Source: Kordia sp. (GTDB lineage: Bacteria > Bacteroidota > Bacteroidia > Flavobacteriales > Flavobacteriaceae). Taken from it: a stretch of DNA of 64,000 nt. The translations under genes and the position numbers were made by a program. This document shows positions 256-11,656 of the stretch, piece by piece. The DNA is taken from assembly GCF_022447245.1 (NCBI RefSeq), contig NZ_JAKVBC010000011.1, positions 62,001 to 126,000 on the forward strand. The letters are read 5' to 3'. Position 1 is the first letter of the stretch. Every line of letters begins with the position of its first letter. The notes below the pieces were generated by a model, which was given only the letters and a program-made list of their open reading frames with translations, did not search any database and was not told the origin of the DNA.

Positions 256-284
256 GTGACAAAGGATATCAAAATAGTGACGAA
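256..284 (-). promoter_or_regulatory. Putative LytTR-type tandem operator C
   Basis: On the minus strand TTCGTCAC (277..284) is followed by TTTGTCAC (256..263). The two octamers are in direct repeat with starts 21 bp apart, i.e. a 13-base spacer. LytTR-domain proteins such as AgrA and AlgR bind direct repeats with 12-13 base spacers. The site lies 73 bases upstream of the leucine-rich-repeat gene. Two more copies sit on the other side of the LytTR gene. Binding is inferred. Confidence 0.55.
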
Positions 285-291
285 AGGAAGT

Positions 292-2820
292 TTACAATTT
301 TATGTTCTTAAGCTCTGCTAAGTACGTTTTTCCTACTCCAATATTTTCTTCATTGATTACTACCCAATTTCTTCCTTTTGCTGACACTTGATCTATTCTA
401 ATAATATAAGATTTGTGAATTCTCAAATACTCTAACGGGTCAGGAGTTTTATTTACAAAATCACTTATCTTACAGCGTATAGTAAATGTTTGATCTTTTG
501 TTACGATATCTAAATAATTACCTTGTGATTTTACATATAGTATTTTGTGGGTACCTATTTTAATATCCTGACCATTAGAGCGTACTAAGAGATTTTTTTC
601 ATTGCGTTTTAGATATTTTATCATCAAACGAATTAGTTCTCTTGTAACATCTTTATTGTAGGTTAAAACTCTTATTTTAAAGAAAATATATACCAAACCA
701 ATACACAACAAAACACAAATAAGATAAAACCAACTTGTTTGCCAAAATGGAGGAATAATGATAAATTCTTTTGTTATAACTTTATCATTACAATTATTAA
801 ATAAACAAGCTTTAGCTTCAAAAGTGTATCGTCCTGGTTCTAAAGAAGGAAATGTAATGGTTCTATTTTTAGTTTCTTTCCAACTTTGATCAATCTCTTT
901 CAATCGATATTTATACACTACATCTTCAGAATGTTTAAAGGATATAGCTTGCAAACGAAAGCTAATATCATTTTCCCCATAGGAAAGCCTTAATCGATTG
1001 TTGCTATCTTTTCGTTTTCCTTTCACGCTTAATGAGTTTAAACTTATATAGTCTACTCCCATTACTTCTTTTTGTTCAACTATTCTGCTTGGAAAAAAGC
1101 AGAGTCCTTTAGCTGTTCCTATCCAAATAGTATCGGACACTATTTCGACATCTTCTATTTCATTACTTACTAAACCATCATCCTTTGTAAGTGTTATAAT
1201 AGAGCTTGTAGCATCTTTATGAAATATTATTTTGTTTAATCCTGAATTGGTACAAGCCCAAACTACAGAATCATTTTCCACATATACTTCGTTAATTGAA
1301 TTCGATGTAAGTCCATTCTTTTTTGAAATATTAAAAATCGTATCGCTGTACACTATCACTCCTAAACCTTGTGAAGCTATATAGGCTGTGTTAGTTTTTT
1401 CATTAACAGCGATATTGTCTAATCGAACATTAAGCTTTTCTGATTCACTTTTAATTTTGAGTATTGAATCTTGTTTTTTTACAAATAAACCTTCAGAAGT
1501 GGCCAATAACATTTTATCTTTAAACCAGACTAAATCTTGAATAGAAGGAACAATATTTACTGGTATTTCAGTACTATCATGAATATTGAATATTACTGAT
1601 CGATTAAACGCAAATGCCCTTTTGTGTTTAGTAAAAGATAAATTATTAGCATATAATGCTACAAAAACCTCTTTTGTTAATACATCCATTATTTTATTAT
1701 CCGAGAGTCCATAAACTCTATCTGTATTCATATCATATTCTACCGCAGTAGATGGGAACTTTAATTTTGAGGTGTATAAGTTTTCAATTATATGATGTTT
1801 TTTTCTTGCGATATTTCCATTATAAAAACCAATAAATAAGTCGTTATCCTTATTCTTTGTCAATGAAGTTATTTTTGAAGTTGTATAATTTTTAATTCCA
1901 ATATTCTTAACATAAAATACCCCTGAATTGATCGTCGTAAACCAATAGCCACCTTCATGGTCTATTAAAAAATTTGAAACAGATTTATTGGGTAAGAACG
2001 TATTTAACAAGTTGCCTTGAAAATCATATAATTTAGCTCCCCCATGTCGATAGCCAACAAATAAACTCCCTTGCTTTGTTTGTTTAATACCAATGGGACT
2101 TTTCTTTGTTTTTATCAAATAATTAGTTTGATTATTCTGTATATAAACTTCATGATTTGCCATGAATACATGTATATGATCATTGACTAAAAAACCATGT
2201 ATATTATGGGCTGGTAATATTCTTTTTATAGAATGTAAATCTGTGTCCGTAAGAAGGTATTGTGTACTAAAAAAGGTGCCTTTTTCTATACCGAATGTTT
2301 TGATGGGTTTTACATCTGTTCCTACATACTTACTATTTAAATTACCATTTTTATCAATAACAATTAACCCATTTACTCTATATCCACCTATATGTAGTTT
2401 GCCTTCTGTGATCCTAACACTTTTGATAATACTTGACTTGTAAAGTTGTTTTTTTAAAATATCATTATGTTCATAAGAATAAAACCCATCAAATATTTCA
2501 TTAAAATAAAACAACTTTTGTGAGTGAAAATCATAACACCAAACCTGTCCATTCTTCTGAGGATAGAATTTCAATATTGTATTTCCAGGTAAGCCATCTT
2601 CCACGGTATAATTTTTAAACTCATATCCATTGTAACGTGAAAGACCTTTGTCCGTGGCAAACCATACATATCCTAATTTATCTTGATATACGTCGTATAC
2701 TTCAGAACTAGGCAATCCATCATCTATAGAAAAATTTTGGTATACATACGATTGTGCTTTGCTTAAAAAACAGTAAAAAATTAGTAGCAATACCAAACAA
2801 AAATTTTTGTGAAACAACAT
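292..2820 (-). CDS. Membrane-bound propeller sensor with cytoplasmic LytTR DNA-binding domain
   Basis: The 842-residue protein has a signal peptide (residues 1-22, ending SKAQ), a long region of reg_prop-type beta-propeller blades (GLPSSEVYDVYQD, GYVWFATDKGLSRYNG and repeats to about 600), a Y_Y_Y domain (about 625-690), one membrane helix (about 697-717) and a C-terminal LytTR domain (about 745-842, with ILYVKSQGNYLDI and LRIHKSYIIRID). There is no histidine kinase or receiver, so the periplasmic sensor is joined directly to the DNA-binding domain through the membrane, as in other one-component hybrid regulators of Bacteroidota. Three matching tandem sites surround the gene: one 73 bases upstream of its own start and one in front of each neighbour. 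I infer that it regulates itself, the leucine-rich-repeat gene and the LamG lipoprotein. The ligand is unknown. Confidence 0.88.
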   Translation of the reverse strand: MLFHKNFCLVLLLIFYCFLSKAQSYVYQNFSIDDGLPSSEVYDVYQDKLGYVWFATDKGLSRYNGYEFKNYTVEDGLPGNTILKFYPQKNGQVWCYDFHSQKLFYFNEIFDGFYSYEHNDILKKQLYKSSIIKSVRITEGKLHIGGYRVNGLIVIDKNGNLNSKYVGTDVKPIKTFGIEKGTFFSTQYLLTDTDLHSIKRILPAHNIHGFLVNDHIHVFMANHEVYIQNNQTNYLIKTKKSPIGIKQTKQGSLFVGYRHGGAKLYDFQGNLLNTFLPNKSVSNFLIDHEGGYWFTTINSGVFYVKNIGIKNYTTSKITSLTKNKDNDLFIGFYNGNIARKKHHIIENLYTSKLKFPSTAVEYDMNTDRVYGLSDNKIMDVLTKEVFVALYANNLSFTKHKRAFAFNRSVIFNIHDSTEIPVNIVPSIQDLVWFKDKMLLATSEGLFVKKQDSILKIKSESEKLNVRLDNIAVNEKTNTAYIASQGLGVIVYSDTIFNISKKNGLTSNSINEVYVENDSVVWACTNSGLNKIIFHKDATSSIITLTKDDGLVSNEIEDVEIVSDTIWIGTAKGLCFFPSRIVEQKEVMGVDYISLNSLSVKGKRKDSNNRLRLSYGENDISFRLQAISFKHSEDVVYKYRLKEIDQSWKETKNRTITFPSLEPGRYTFEAKACLFNNCNDKVITKEFIIIPPFWQTSWFYLICVLLCIGLVYIFFKIRVLTYNKDVTRELIRLMIKYLKRNEKNLLVRSNGQDIKIGTHKILYVKSQGNYLDIVTKDQTFTIRCKISDFVNKTPDPLEYLRIHKSYIIRIDQVSAKGRNWVVINEENIGVGKTYLAELKNIKL

Positions 2821-2893
2821 ATATAAAAATTATATAACAAAAGTATTATTATTAAGAACAACATAAAATAATATAACACTCAAGCTTTTTCCG

Positions 2894-2922
2894 TTCGTCA
2901 CTATTTTAAATACGTTTATCAC
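2894..2922 (+). promoter_or_regulatory. Putative LytTR-type tandem operator A
   Basis: TTCGTCAC (2894..2901) and TTTATCAC (2915..2922) form a direct repeat with starts 21 bp apart. The spacer TATTTTAAATACG resembles the spacers of the other two sites. It lies 73 bases upstream of the LytTR gene start, which suggests autoregulation (inference). Confidence 0.55.
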
Positions 2923-3104
2923 TTTTAGCCGTATTAACTGCGATTGAAGACAAATCAAAACAAGAAATTATACAATATTTGAATTTTATTATCCTTATTA
3001 TTTTTTCGCATTATTCTTTAAAAAATAATATCATATACTATAAAACACCTCAAACTTCACAATTGTTTCTTTAAAGAAAATTTTTGAGGTGACAAAAATA
3101 CCTT

Positions 3105-3133
3105 TTCATCACTAAAATTAATACGTTCATCAC
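3105..3133 (+). promoter_or_regulatory. Putative LytTR-type tandem operator B
   Basis: Two identical octamers TTCATCAC (3105..3112 and 3126..3133) lie in direct repeat with starts 21 bp apart and spacer TAAAATTAATACG. The site lies 167 bases upstream of the LamG lipoprotein and has the same geometry as sites A and C. Confidence 0.55.
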
Positions 3134-3300
3134 ATCGCGTTGCGCTTTTATAAAAGGTCATTCATAGTATTTTATTTTTTGTGAGTTATTAGATTTCTTT
3201 GAACCATCATTTTGTCTAAAAGTTACAAATCAACCAAACCAAAAAAGCATTCACTTTTAGAAATCATATCATTCACAAAATCAAAACTAAAACTGTAATT

Positions 3301-4261: not shown

Positions 4262-4432
4262 ATGAAACTTAAAACATTGAAAGTATTCCAAATGAACCAT
4301 CATTTAGAAAGAAAACTATTAGGAGGTACTACAAAAACAGAAAGGAAAACCACTTGAGAAACTCCAATTACAGATCCTTATGTAGGTTCTAAAAATCTTG
4401 AAGAAGAAAACATGAATTCAAGTAATTATTAA
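4262..4432 (+). pseudogene. GG-leader peptide gene interrupted by in-frame TGA
   Basis: The frame opens MKLKTLKVFQMNHHLERKLL then GGTTKTERKTT, stops at TGA 4355..4357, and continues in the same frame as ETPITDPYVGSKNLEEEN to a TAA at 4430..4432. The gene just downstream (4457..4615) has the same layout with NRETPITDPNEE, where AGA occupies the position of this TGA. The upstream copy therefore appears to have lost its core by a single A-to-T change. The product would have been a short ribosomal peptide with a GG cleavage site. Readthrough cannot be excluded, but no selenocysteine machinery is visible here. Confidence 0.7.
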
Positions 4433-4456: not shown

Positions 4457-4615
4457 ATGAAATTCAAAACATTAAAGTTAACTAAAATAGATAACAATTT
4501 ACAAGAAAGAATCTGTGGAGGAACTACATCTACAGAAAATGAAGCCAATAGAGAAACTCCAATTACTGACCCAAATGAAGAAGCTAGTTTTTTAGAAGAG
4601 TTGTATAGCAAATAG
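4457..4615 (+). CDS. GG-leader natural-product precursor peptide
   Basis: A 52-residue peptide, too short for most gene callers. The leader MKFKTLKLTKIDNNLQERIC ends in GG (21-22). The core, starting TTSTENEANRETPITDP, is rich in Thr, Ser, Glu and Asp and has a single Cys just before the GG. Leaders of the form MK(L/F)KTLKL...GG are common in Bacteroidota natural-product precursors that are exported and trimmed by C39-type ABC transporters. It follows a broken paralogue by 24 bases. No maturase or transporter is encoded in this window, so the modification class is unknown; the acidic, Thr-rich core contains no Cys-based ring pattern. Confidence 0.7.
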   Translation: MKFKTLKLTKIDNNLQERICGGTTSTENEANRETPITDPNEEASFLEELYSK

Positions 4616-4798: not shown

Positions 4799-5002
4799 AT
4801 GAAAAAACAAATTTTAAAATCATTAACATTAAAAAAGAAAACAATTTCAAACTTTGAAATTACTGAAATCAATGGAGGAATTTCTGGTGGACCATGTGGT
4901 TCTCACGGTAATTCAATGTGTTGTGCAAAAACATACAACCAAAATTGTAGATATACAGACCGTAGAACATGTACAGGCTCAGTTATACATTGCGCAGAAT
5001 AA
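4799..5002 (+). CDS. Cys-rich GG-leader peptide, lanthipeptide-like precursor
   Basis: A 67-residue peptide. The leader MKKQILKSLTLKKKTISNFE...INGG has the LxLxKKxISNxxxxxxxGG signature of precursors annotated in flavobacteria as class I lanthipeptides. The core after GG27 has six Cys (33, 41, 42, 50, 58, 65) and many Ser/Thr residues. Either lanthionine rings or disulfides are possible. No LanB, LanC or LanT homologue occurs in the window, so the machinery must be elsewhere or absent. It lies in an accessory strip with two other GG-leader genes upstream. Confidence 0.75.
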   Translation: MKKQILKSLTLKKKTISNFEITEINGGISGGPCGSHGNSMCCAKTYNQNCRYTDRRTCTGSVIHCAE

Positions 5003-9176: not shown

Positions 9177-10445
9177 CTATTGAATAATAGTCCCTTTTGG
9201 AATCACCGCATCTTTTTTAATCACCACAATGCCATCTTTGATAAAATAGGTATCTGTTTCTTCATCGGCTAAATCAGGCCCACCGTGAATTTTGACATCA
9301 TCGCCTATGCGACAGTTTTTATCAATGATTGCATTTTTAATATAGCAACGCTCTCCTACACCTACAAGAATATCAATTTTCTTTTCTTCAATTTCTTCCA
9401 AGGATTCATAGGTATCGCTTCCCATCATATATGTGTTTACAATAACAGTATCGTTACCAATACGCGAACGAATTCCAATCACAGAACGTTCTATTTTGGA
9501 TGCCTGAATGATACAACCATCAGAAATAACGGTATTATTCAGCGTAGTTCCTGAGATTTTGGAAGTCGCCAAGATACGTGCGTTGGTATAGATACGCTGC
9601 TTTTGATCGTATAAGTTAAATTTCGGAATATCATCTGTCAAACCTAAATTTGCTTCAAAGAACGAATCAATATTTCCAATGTCTGTCCAATAACCTTCGT
9701 ATTGATAACTTACCGTTTTATGCTTGTCAATGCTTTGCGGAATAATTTCTTTTCCAAAATCGACTGTATCTGGATTGTCCATGAGTTTGATTAACAAGTC
9801 TCTGTTAAAAATATAAATTCCCATCGACGCCAAATACAAACGTTTTTCCTTCTTCATTTCCTTACTTACATCCGATTTCCATTCTGGCAATACATCTGCC
9901 GCTGGTTTTTCAATAAACGATGTAATCACGTTTTCTTCATTTGTTTTCATGATTCCAAACGAAGTAGCATCTTTTGCATTTACAGGATAGGTTGCAATGG
10001 AAATTTCTGCACCCGATTGTTCATGCTTTTTGATCATTTCATTAAAATCCATCTGATATAATTGATCTCCCGAAAGGATGAGCGCATATTCAAAATCATT
10101 TTTTAGAAAGTGATGCATGCTTTGTCGTACCGCGTCTGCTGTTCCCTGAAACCATTTGTCACTCGAAATCGTTTGTTCTGCTGCTAGGACATCCACAAAA
10201 GCTGAGCTAAAGAAACTAAAGTGGTAGGTATTAGATATGTGCTTATTCAAGGAAGCCGAATTGAACTGCGTCAATACATACATACGTTTGATATCCGAAT
10301 TGATACAATTGGAAATTGGAATATCAACCAATCTATATTTTCCAGCAATCGGAACTGCTGGTTTTGAACGTGCTTCTGTTAATGGATAGAGTCTTGAACC
10401 TTGTCCGCCTCCGAGAATGATACTTAGTACTTTATTGTTAATCAT
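9177..10445 (-). CDS. glgC: Glucose-1-phosphate adenylyltransferase
   Basis: A 422-residue enzyme that makes ADP-glucose from ATP and glucose-1-phosphate, the committed step of bacterial glycogen synthesis. The N-terminal nucleotidyltransferase signature IILGGGQGSRLYPLTEARSK and KPAVPIAGKYRLVDIPISNC are intact, as are ALILSGDQLYQMD and the sugar-binding FIEKP motif. The C-terminal 120 residues form a left-handed beta-helix (ISGTTLNNTVISDGCII, RSVIGIRSRIG). The length is normal for GlgC. It starts 8 bases after glgA ends, so the two form one transcript. Allosteric control cannot be judged from sequence. Confidence 0.97.
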   Translation of the reverse strand: MINNKVLSIILGGGQGSRLYPLTEARSKPAVPIAGKYRLVDIPISNCINSDIKRMYVLTQFNSASLNKHISNTYHFSFFSSAFVDVLAAEQTISSDKWFQGTADAVRQSMHHFLKNDFEYALILSGDQLYQMDFNEMIKKHEQSGAEISIATYPVNAKDATSFGIMKTNEENVITSFIEKPAADVLPEWKSDVSKEMKKEKRLYLASMGIYIFNRDLLIKLMDNPDTVDFGKEIIPQSIDKHKTVSYQYEGYWTDIGNIDSFFEANLGLTDDIPKFNLYDQKQRIYTNARILATSKISGTTLNNTVISDGCIIQASKIERSVIGIRSRIGNDTVIVNTYMMGSDTYESLEEIEEKKIDILVGVGERCYIKNAIIDKNCRIGDDVKIHGGPDLADEETDTYFIKDGIVVIKKDAVIPKGTIIQ

Positions 10446-10453
10446 GGTGGTAA

Positions 10454-11656
10454 TTATATGATAGATTTATATAGGTTTTCAGTTTGTTTTGCAATGGCTT
10501 TCCAGTCAAAAAAGTCTTCTACGCGTTTTCTGCCTGCGATTTCCATCTGTGCTCGTAATGCTTCGTCATTGACAACTTTGTTGATACCATCAGCTAAATC
10601 TTTGGCAAATCTTTCAGGATCTACAGGTTCAAAAGGTGCTGCATTTTGTTGCTCCACTTCTATTAAAATTCCTGTTTCGTTTGGAATCACAACTTCTTTG
10701 ATTCCACCAACTGCACTGGCTACAACGGCTGTTTTGCAAGCCATCGCTTCTATATTTATGATTCCGAAAGGTTCATAGATAGATGGACAACAGAAAACCG
10801 TTGCGTGTGAATACAATTCAATAATTTCTTCTTTCGGCAACATTTCTTCAATCCAAAATACATTGTTGCGTGTTTCTTTCACTGCTGCCACACTTTCTTG
10901 CATTTCTTTGGCAATTTCTTCGGTATCTGGCGCACCAGCACACAGCACAATTTGCGTATTTGTATCAATATGTTTGATGGCATTGACCAAATGAATGATT
11001 CCTTTTTGACGTGTAATACGTCCCACAAATAACACATACGGTTTTGAAGGATCAATATTGAATTTTTCTAGTGTTGCTGTCGTTTCCGTATATTGATACT
11101 GCTGTAGATTGATTCCGTTGTAAATCACCTTTATTTTGTGTTCATTTACATTGAAGTGCGTTTGCACATCTACTTTGGTTTCCTCTGAAACGGCAATAAT
11201 GGCATCTGCCATTTCGATGGCTGTCTTTTCAATCCAAGAAGACGCATCGTATCCGCGACCTAATTGTTCGCGTTTCCAAGGACGTAACGGTTCTAGTGAA
11301 TGTGTAGTAATTACTAAAGGCTTGCCGTAACATAGTTTTGCCATAATTCCTGCAAATTGTGCATACCATGTATGACAATGTACTACATCCGCATCAACTC
11401 CAGTTGCGTTCATCTGTAAATTTGTTTGCATAGTATTAAAGATGGTTTGCAACTTTTTTTCCGTAGATTCATAATGTTGATGATTTCCTAAAAATCCCGT
11501 AACATTCAAATTTTCTGCAGTGATTTTTTGATCGCCAAAACTTCGTACATCAACTTCCATTAATTGCTTTAGTTCATCTGCTAAATATTCAACATGAACT
11601 CCTGCTCCTCCGTACACATAAGGCGGAAATTCTTTCGTAAAAAAAAGTACTTTCAT
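10454..11656 (-). CDS. glgA: Glycogen synthase, GT4 type
   Basis: A 400-residue glycosyltransferase with GT-B fold. The N-terminus MKVLFFTKEFPPYVYGGAGV has the GGAG loop; the C-terminal domain contains PYVLFVGRITRQKGI, and the donor-site motif PSIYEPFGIINIEAMA (E-x7-E type of GT4). It resembles the short glycogen synthases found in Actinobacteria and Bacteroidota rather than the GT5 E. coli GlgA. With glgC directly downstream on the same strand it makes a two-gene glycogen operon; the branching enzyme and phosphorylase are not in the window. Whether the donor goes to glycogen or to maltose-1-phosphate (GlgM-type) is not resolved by sequence alone. Confidence 0.92.
   Translation of the reverse strand: MKVLFFTKEFPPYVYGGAGVHVEYLADELKQLMEVDVRSFGDQKITAENLNVTGFLGNHQHYESTEKKLQTIFNTMQTNLQMNATGVDADVVHCHTWYAQFAGIMAKLCYGKPLVITTHSLEPLRPWKREQLGRGYDASSWIEKTAIEMADAIIAVSEETKVDVQTHFNVNEHKIKVIYNGINLQQYQYTETTATLEKFNIDPSKPYVLFVGRITRQKGIIHLVNAIKHIDTNTQIVLCAGAPDTEEIAKEMQESVAAVKETRNNVFWIEEMLPKEEIIELYSHATVFCCPSIYEPFGIINIEAMACKTAVVASAVGGIKEVVIPNETGILIEVEQQNAAPFEPVDPERFAKDLADGINKVVNDEALRAQMEIAGRKRVEDFFDWKAIAKQTENLYKSII

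Follow-up and report, generated by a model that had tools for sequence, protein, structure and literature searches.

Paired direct repeats as predicted operators of a membrane-anchored propeller-LytTR regulator in Kordia sp.

LytTR regulators bound to the membrane are already known, as are LytTR operators made up of direct repeats. Passages of one account (PMC11347149) describe RcoM1 as binding three TTCNNGCA repeats with 12-13 bp spacing, and CoxC as a membrane-bound LytTR repressor that binds three direct repeats. In passages of a second account (PMC10269533), LytTR proteins with membrane segments are named for Caulobacter alone, and how membrane-tied transmembrane one-component transcription regulators (TTRs) find and activate promoters is given as an open question. 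Here we analysed a 64-kb stretch of DNA from Kordia sp. (Flavobacteriaceae; contig NZ_JAKVBC010000011.1, positions 62,001 to 126,000), referred to below in its full length as the window, where a first-pass annotation had noted three pairs of 8-bp repeats (sites C, A and B) around the gene of a membrane-bound LytTR protein, P0002. The locus very likely encodes a membrane-anchored one-component regulator together with its own operators and, as judged from sequence, the three paired sites are very probably the predicted binding sites of this neighbouring regulator.

Each site consists of TTCRTCAC followed by TTYRTCAC with the half-site starts 21 bp apart, and the sequences and coordinates given by the first-pass annotation proved correct (Table 1). 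The exact pattern TTCRTCAC-N13-TTYRTCAC has three matches in the window, namely C, A and B. The annotation had called for a search of the full genome (5,244,617 bp), and this returned the same three matches, every one at the regulator locus, where about 0.03 were expected under a base-composition model. When up to two mismatches were allowed, the genome gave 61 matches as compared to 50 for a reversed control pattern. Mismatched matches are therefore uninformative, and a search has to use either the exact form or a trained profile. A profile, R1, was built from 45 sites with the window genome excluded. Applied to the window genome, it ranked an array at C21 (23.9 bits) second, after site C and before site A, and a match at C53 fourth (17.1 bits), before site B. 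The C53 match lies inside an open reading frame (ORF) in an unrelated place and was taken as chance. Neither the exact search nor the profile scan found the motif to be as frequent at unrelated promoters, which is the outcome that the annotation had named as fatal to its proposal.

The sites had been placed at the promoters of a leucine-rich-repeat (LRR) gene, the regulator gene and a LamG gene, and this placement holds with one refinement. Sites A and B share a single divergent intergenic region, 211 bp apart, and both read toward the LamG gene, the first gene in their reading direction; A is therefore inverted relative to the regulator gene. In 12 relatives, A and B are 100-101, 110, 119 or 121 bp apart. 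The LRR start codon is 72 bp from the end of site C, and the LamG start codon 167 bp from that of site B.

Table 1. Positions in the window of the paired sites, the -7 boxes and the genes they adjoin.
Feature	Position	Strand	Sequence	Comment
Secreted LRR gene, 5' end	1-183	minus		Full length 1069 aa, continues beyond the window; predicted target of site C
-7 box of LRR gene	209-216	minus	TATTTTTG	Starts 40 bp past the 3' end of site C
Site C	256-284	minus	TTCGTCAC-N13-TTTGTCAC	R1 rank 1 in genome, 24.2 bits
Membrane-anchored regulator (P0002), 842 aa	292-2820	minus		Signal-like N terminus, Reg_prop propeller, Y_Y_Y, one transmembrane segment, LytTR
-7 box of regulator gene	2838-2845	minus	TACTTTTG	Nearer edge of site A is 49 bp away
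Site A	2894-2922	plus	TTCGTCAC-N13-TTTATCAC	Inverted predicted operator of the regulator gene; R1 rank 3, 22.2 bits
Site B	3105-3133	plus	TTCATCAC-N13-TTCATCAC	Reads toward the LamG gene; R1 rank 5, 15.4 bits, E 0.09
Imperfect -7 box	3173-3180	plus	TATTTTTT	Starts 40 bp past site B; last base off TAnnTTTG
LamG-type lipoprotein-like gene, 265 aa	3301-4098	plus		Laminin_G_3, E 1.8e-13; probable target of site B

Relatives of the regulator were found in 8 of the 11 genomes of the genus and in 16 of 397 genomes of the family (E 1e-60 or better); one genome of the genus scan carries the same stretch as the Kordia jejudonensis locus L086. The loci compared here number 45: 42 named loci (of 44 found) and three loci of the window genome. 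The weak matches L124 and L125 were excluded from every site count. An assumption-free scan for repeat offsets gave 21 bp as the commonest value in both batches of loci. In batch 1 this offset occurred in 11/27 upstream and 14/27 downstream regions (next other offset, 8 and 9), and in batch 2 in 17/41 and 15/40 (next other offset, 12 and 11), with an offset of 22 bp in 13 of the downstream regions. The two scans are not independent because the batches overlap, 21 of the 27 loci of batch 1 recurring in batch 2.

We then scored pairs by their summed matches to the half-site TTCRTCAC (maximum 16). At scores of 15-16, the stretches up to 400 bp from the regulator (34.9 kb over the 45 loci) contain 47 pairs, as compared to none in the other 552.9 kb. 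Spacing was 21 bp in 28 of these pairs and 22 bp in 19, and no pair near the regulator had a spacing of 15-20 or 23-30 bp. At scores of at least 14 there are 68 pairs, distributed over 36 of the 45 loci; upstream of the regulator 33/35 point away from it, and downstream 33/33 point with it. Identity between loci is 0.87 and 0.85 in the half-sites, 0.57 and 0.58 in the spacers, and 0.38 and 0.34 in the flanks. The annotation had held that homologous loci keeping the gene trio without the repeats would speak against it. The comparison showed the opposite, as the pairs are retained beside the regulator. The trio itself is not conserved; what is conserved is the regulator, the operator and some gene for a secreted protein or small peptide. 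Taken as direct repeats about two helical turns apart, the pairs look like LytTR-type operators, which supports the earlier suggestion.

Beside related regulators of other marine bacteria, the pairs also keep fixed positions relative to promoters. For Flavobacterium psychrophilum, passages of PMC9723704 give the -7 box as TAnnTTTG, spanning -12 to -5. Distances to such boxes were counted for 48 of the 68 pairs scoring at least 14, which the analyst split by position into 29 target-side and 19 A-type sites; the window's own sites contribute two and one, respectively. The 20 pairs left out overlap within arrays or are weak or off-pattern (two each at L055, L099, L101, L104, L106, L120 and L121; one each at L086, L098, L105, L111, L112 and L115). 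TAnnTTTG starts 38-42 bp downstream of 17/29 target-side sites (22/29 if TTYG is accepted) and of 0/19 A-type sites. At 18/19 A-type sites the box is instead on the side and strand of the regulator, at a distance of 38-39 or 48-49 bp. With 29 permuted box patterns as a control, the maximum was 3/29 for target-side and 5/19 for A-type sites. The 48-49 bp class comprises the window, L088, L089, L102 and L111, and all other A-type sites with a box fall at 38-39 bp, so that site A lies one helical turn farther from its promoter than in most relatives. This one-turn difference (39 versus 49 bp) follows the regulator tree, where the window is basal in a fully supported clade of 13 rows, all of whose members have an upstream site.

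Because of these box distances and sides, site C is the predicted operator of the LRR gene, site B is probably that of the LamG gene, and site A is the predicted inverted operator of the regulator's own promoter. An A-type site may instead serve the divergent gene as its second operator. We favour autoregulation over this possibility because the spacing to the regulator's -7 box is tighter, and because L088, L089, L102 and L111 have an A-type site with their target site on the other side of the regulator.

P0002 contains Reg_prop, Y_Y_Y and LytTR as its sole domains in a Pfam scan, the LytTR domain at residues 753-840 (PF04397, E 2.8e-11, 43.9 bits, cut-off 22.6). Its strongest hydrophobic segment, residues 698-716, is followed by a basic stretch, and its N terminus is hydrophobic and signal-peptide-like. 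The scan detected no HisKA, HATPase_c or receiver domain in P0002, which sets it apart from hybrid two-component systems and bears out the earlier description of a sensor without a kinase. It also detected no MHYT sensor domain, so that P0002 is not a CoxC-like MHYT-LytTR protein. With a LytTR domain and a transmembrane segment in one protein and neither kinase nor receiver, P0002 has the composition of a TTR. It has that of a LytTR-type regulator as well, by its LytTR domain and, if we assign the operator correctly, by direct repeats about two helical turns apart. A search of solved structures returned a single weak match (ComE, 4cbv, E 0.023), and comparison of operator specificity with LytTR residues yielded no clear rule.

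Taken together, these features suggest the following mechanism. The periplasmic propeller and Y_Y_Y domains would sense a signal, the single transmembrane helix would relay it to the cytoplasmic LytTR domain, and LytTR domains would occupy both TTCRTCAC half-sites, which are spaced by two helical turns. At sites C and B, the operator would sit immediately before the LRR or LamG promoter and activate it, and site A, inverted at the regulator's own promoter, would provide autoregulation.

R1 was also run over the 397 family genomes. Thirteen had a match at E 2e-4 or better, and 12 of these 13 are among the 16 that bear the regulator. Most of the genomes with strong matches had fed the R1 training set; the out-of-sample results are the specificity, the ranking in the window genome, loci L213 and L222, and the distant Kordia sites described below. 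At a looser threshold (E 0.01) 46/397 genomes match, which adds weak matches in 34 regulator-free genomes; those inspected (L168 and L170-L173) were partly inside ORFs. In an order-wide scan, relatives of the regulator (E 1e-80 or better) were present in 9/395 genomes. Eleven loci were examined, two paralogues from the window genome being left out, and six end LytTR-like as called by script or eye. Pairs scoring at least 13 were found at L213, L214 and L222, all three LytTR-ended, of which L214 comes from a genome already sampled. The five loci without a LytTR end had no pair. L222, from a different family of the same order, has two perfect half-sites, and L222 and L213, both outside the training set, have a -7 box at +41.

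Several observations weigh against this reading. Site B has a low score and an imperfect -7 box. Four of the 16 regulator-bearing family genomes (G204, G329, G346 and G371) have no R1 match, and in the order-wide scan three of the six loci with a LytTR end (L215, L216 and L217) lack a pair scoring at least 13. Conversely, genome G002 (L167, of the genus Kordia) has an operator array before GG-leader peptide genes and no family regulator at E 1e-60; this array may be an orphan operator or one served by a different regulator. A consensus pair is missing from 9/45 loci (L056, L092, L093, L094, L095, L097, L100, L118 and L123). The flanks of L092, L095 and L100 are incomplete, and four others have variant repeats with a 21/22-bp period downstream of the regulator: TTCGTACC at L093, CTCGTCCC at L097, TTCGCACC at L123, and at L056 a repeat read by eye. 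In the flanks of L094 and L118 neither a consensus pair nor a variant repeat was seen. Variant half-sites with a constant period suggest that operator specificity has drifted between clades. Finally, the loci share ancestry, and the counts given above are not independent events.

One alternative is that these are real operators of another transcription factor governing the neighbourhood, e.g., a soluble LytTR response regulator. The genome encodes further LytTR proteins, G002 retains its array in the absence of a family regulator, and it is from their association that we predict binding by P0002. That association is close, however: strong sites occur almost exclusively where the propeller-LytTR fusion is encoded (the 12 of 13 family genomes), they cluster tightly around the fusion gene (47 pairs close to it, 0 in the rest), and at the other LytTR or propeller genes found in the window genome there is no R1 match of at least 15 bits. 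We consider another factor improbable. It could also be speculated that the repeats are leftovers of a mobile element or of gene duplication with no regulatory role, given that two full paralogues are encoded in the window genome, as is a decayed LytTR fragment close to which repeats occur. Leftovers would hardly show conservation confined to the half-sites (0.85-0.87, against 0.34-0.38 in the flanks) or a -7 box distance fixed in many genera, and this explanation is extremely unlikely.

A different question is whether P0002 represses rather than activates, its bound operators silencing the surface genes until a signal releases the regulator. Among the membrane-bound one-component LytTR regulators described so far, CoxC comes closest to P0002, and passages of PMC11347149 present it as a repressor. 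Its operator, however, overlaps the -35 box, while the one in the present case stops about 40 bp before the -7 box is reached. If this box spans -12 to -5, the near end of the operator at target genes is at about -52, a position typical of activators, and it is for this reason that we propose activation. Repression by P0002 is thus unlikely, and a membrane-anchored activator with its own operators remains our preferred reading.

The regulon may extend beyond the locus. In the family scan, where 16 candidates were scored per genome, the 12 genomes that have a strong site as well as the regulator gave 24 matches at E 0.01 or better, 23 of them at regulator loci, suggesting a strictly local regulon. 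The genus scan, with 150 candidates per genome, rejected this: matches occurred in 10/11 genomes, and of 19 matches in the 11 genomes nine were at regulator loci and ten elsewhere. The earlier proposal of a small regulon thus stands for the three local sites but not for confinement to the locus, in view of the distant sites in related Kordia and the similar C21 array. The ten distant matches are the G002 array and nine in eight stretches examined. Seven of the eight distant sites examined precede genes for secreted proteins or GG-leader peptides: four are 69-122 bp before GG peptides, two (L225, its start codon taken as an internal ATG, and L226) precede proteins of the type IX secretion system (T9SS) kind, and one is 75 bp before the gene of a 580-aa protein. 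The L232 match is inside a gene and was taken as chance. A -7 box is present at +40 or +41 in 5/8 distant sites, with a near match in one more. The regulator, if bound at these sites, therefore acts in trans.

We surveyed 20 chosen target proteins, a selection from all possible targets (L091 is represented by the third gene past its site). BspA-type LRR_5 repeats are present in 8/20 and a T9SS sorting domain in 13/20 (E 0.001 or better), seven of the latter above the Pfam cut-off. The other chosen targets comprise two cadherin-like proteins, one Kelch protein, one erythromycin-esterase-like protein and one without a match. At the group-2 Kordia loci (L055, L099, L101, L104, L105, L106 and L120) the array is followed by small-peptide genes, mostly with a GG leader-like motif; the first such ORF begins 73-102 bp from the array except at L055 (346 bp). 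Leader models of ribosomally synthesised and post-translationally modified peptides (RiPPs) match 5/10 GG peptides, all below cut-off. For the class I lanthipeptide leader NF038153 (cut-off 22 bits) the best of the ten peptides reached 15.9 bits. A peptide in the window (4799-5002) scored 13.7 bits, also below cut-off and a resemblance only.

Some features of the surroundings may be added. The full ORF of the LRR gene (L057 6974-10183) carries Pfam LRR_4 and Por_Secre_tail, a T9SS tail. On one side of the regulator island lie glgB, a maltokinase-like and an alpha-amylase-family gene, and across it glgC and a gene for glycogen synthase (L057 719-6204 and window 9177-11656). These genes are all minus-strand, and the island looks as if it had been inserted into a glycogen cluster. 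Two adjoining GG-leader-like small ORFs occupy 4262-4357 and 4457-4615 of the window, and the first stops at a TGA where the second continues through similar sequence. The two full paralogues of P0002, at C21 and C67, have the identical domain set. At the C21 locus (L055 9408-9635 and nearby), a 75-aa LytTR piece without a sensor precedes repeat-like sequence and genes for GG peptides; it looks like a decayed second regulator.

As a generalisation, which we offer tentatively and judge somewhat short of probable, the propeller-LytTR proteins would form an undescribed family of self-contained sense-and-display modules. A single protein would sense outside the membrane and switch on its own gene together with neighbouring genes for surface proteins (often LRR, T9SS-type) or RiPP-like GG peptides. 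At the regulator's own promoter the LytTR pair would act inverted, its distance to the -7 box (38-39 or 48-49 bp) being kept in full turns of the helix. Distant promoters would still be reached in some Kordia. Such a family amounts to a natural experiment on how membrane-tied regulators work, as it offers many species, a readable operator, a fixed promoter geometry, operators in both orientations, and targets both near and far. Its operator can be computed, and so can be used to look for the proteins that Flavobacteriaceae display at the surface under a single signal. The family would, moreover, connect a membrane sensor with the RiPP-like peptides of Kordia. A literature search, with subscription papers outside its coverage, found no paper on propeller-LytTR proteins, their operator or the two-sided promoter geometry, and all three appear to be new.

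P0002 can be compared with several known systems. Hybrid two-component systems of the Bacteroidetes (Reg_prop/Y_Y_Y, kinase, receiver, AraC-type HTH) have the same propeller and Y_Y_Y sensor modules. P0002 differs from these in having no HisKA, HATPase_c or receiver domain and a LytTR domain in place of the HTH. ToxR and CadC use winged-helix DNA-binding domains, not LytTR. Like P0002, they combine extracytoplasmic sensing and DNA binding in one membrane protein, according to passages of PMC10269533. The operator resembles that of RcoM1 (PAS-LytTR, Paraburkholderia xenovorans), whose 8-bp TTCNNGCA repeats at 12-13 bp, given in passages of PMC11347149, are close to TTCRTCAC at 13-14 bp. RcoM1, on the other hand, has three repeats as a rule and is a soluble haem sensor. 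With CoxC (Afipia carboxidovorans, MHYT-LytTR), as described in the same passages, P0002 has in common a one-component, membrane-bound architecture, a C-terminal LytTR domain and direct repeats about two helical turns apart. In contrast to CoxC, a repressor with a seven-helix MHYT sensor for CO and three repeats overlapping the -35 box, P0002 has a large periplasmic propeller, one transmembrane segment, and an operator of mostly two half-sites upstream of the promoter.

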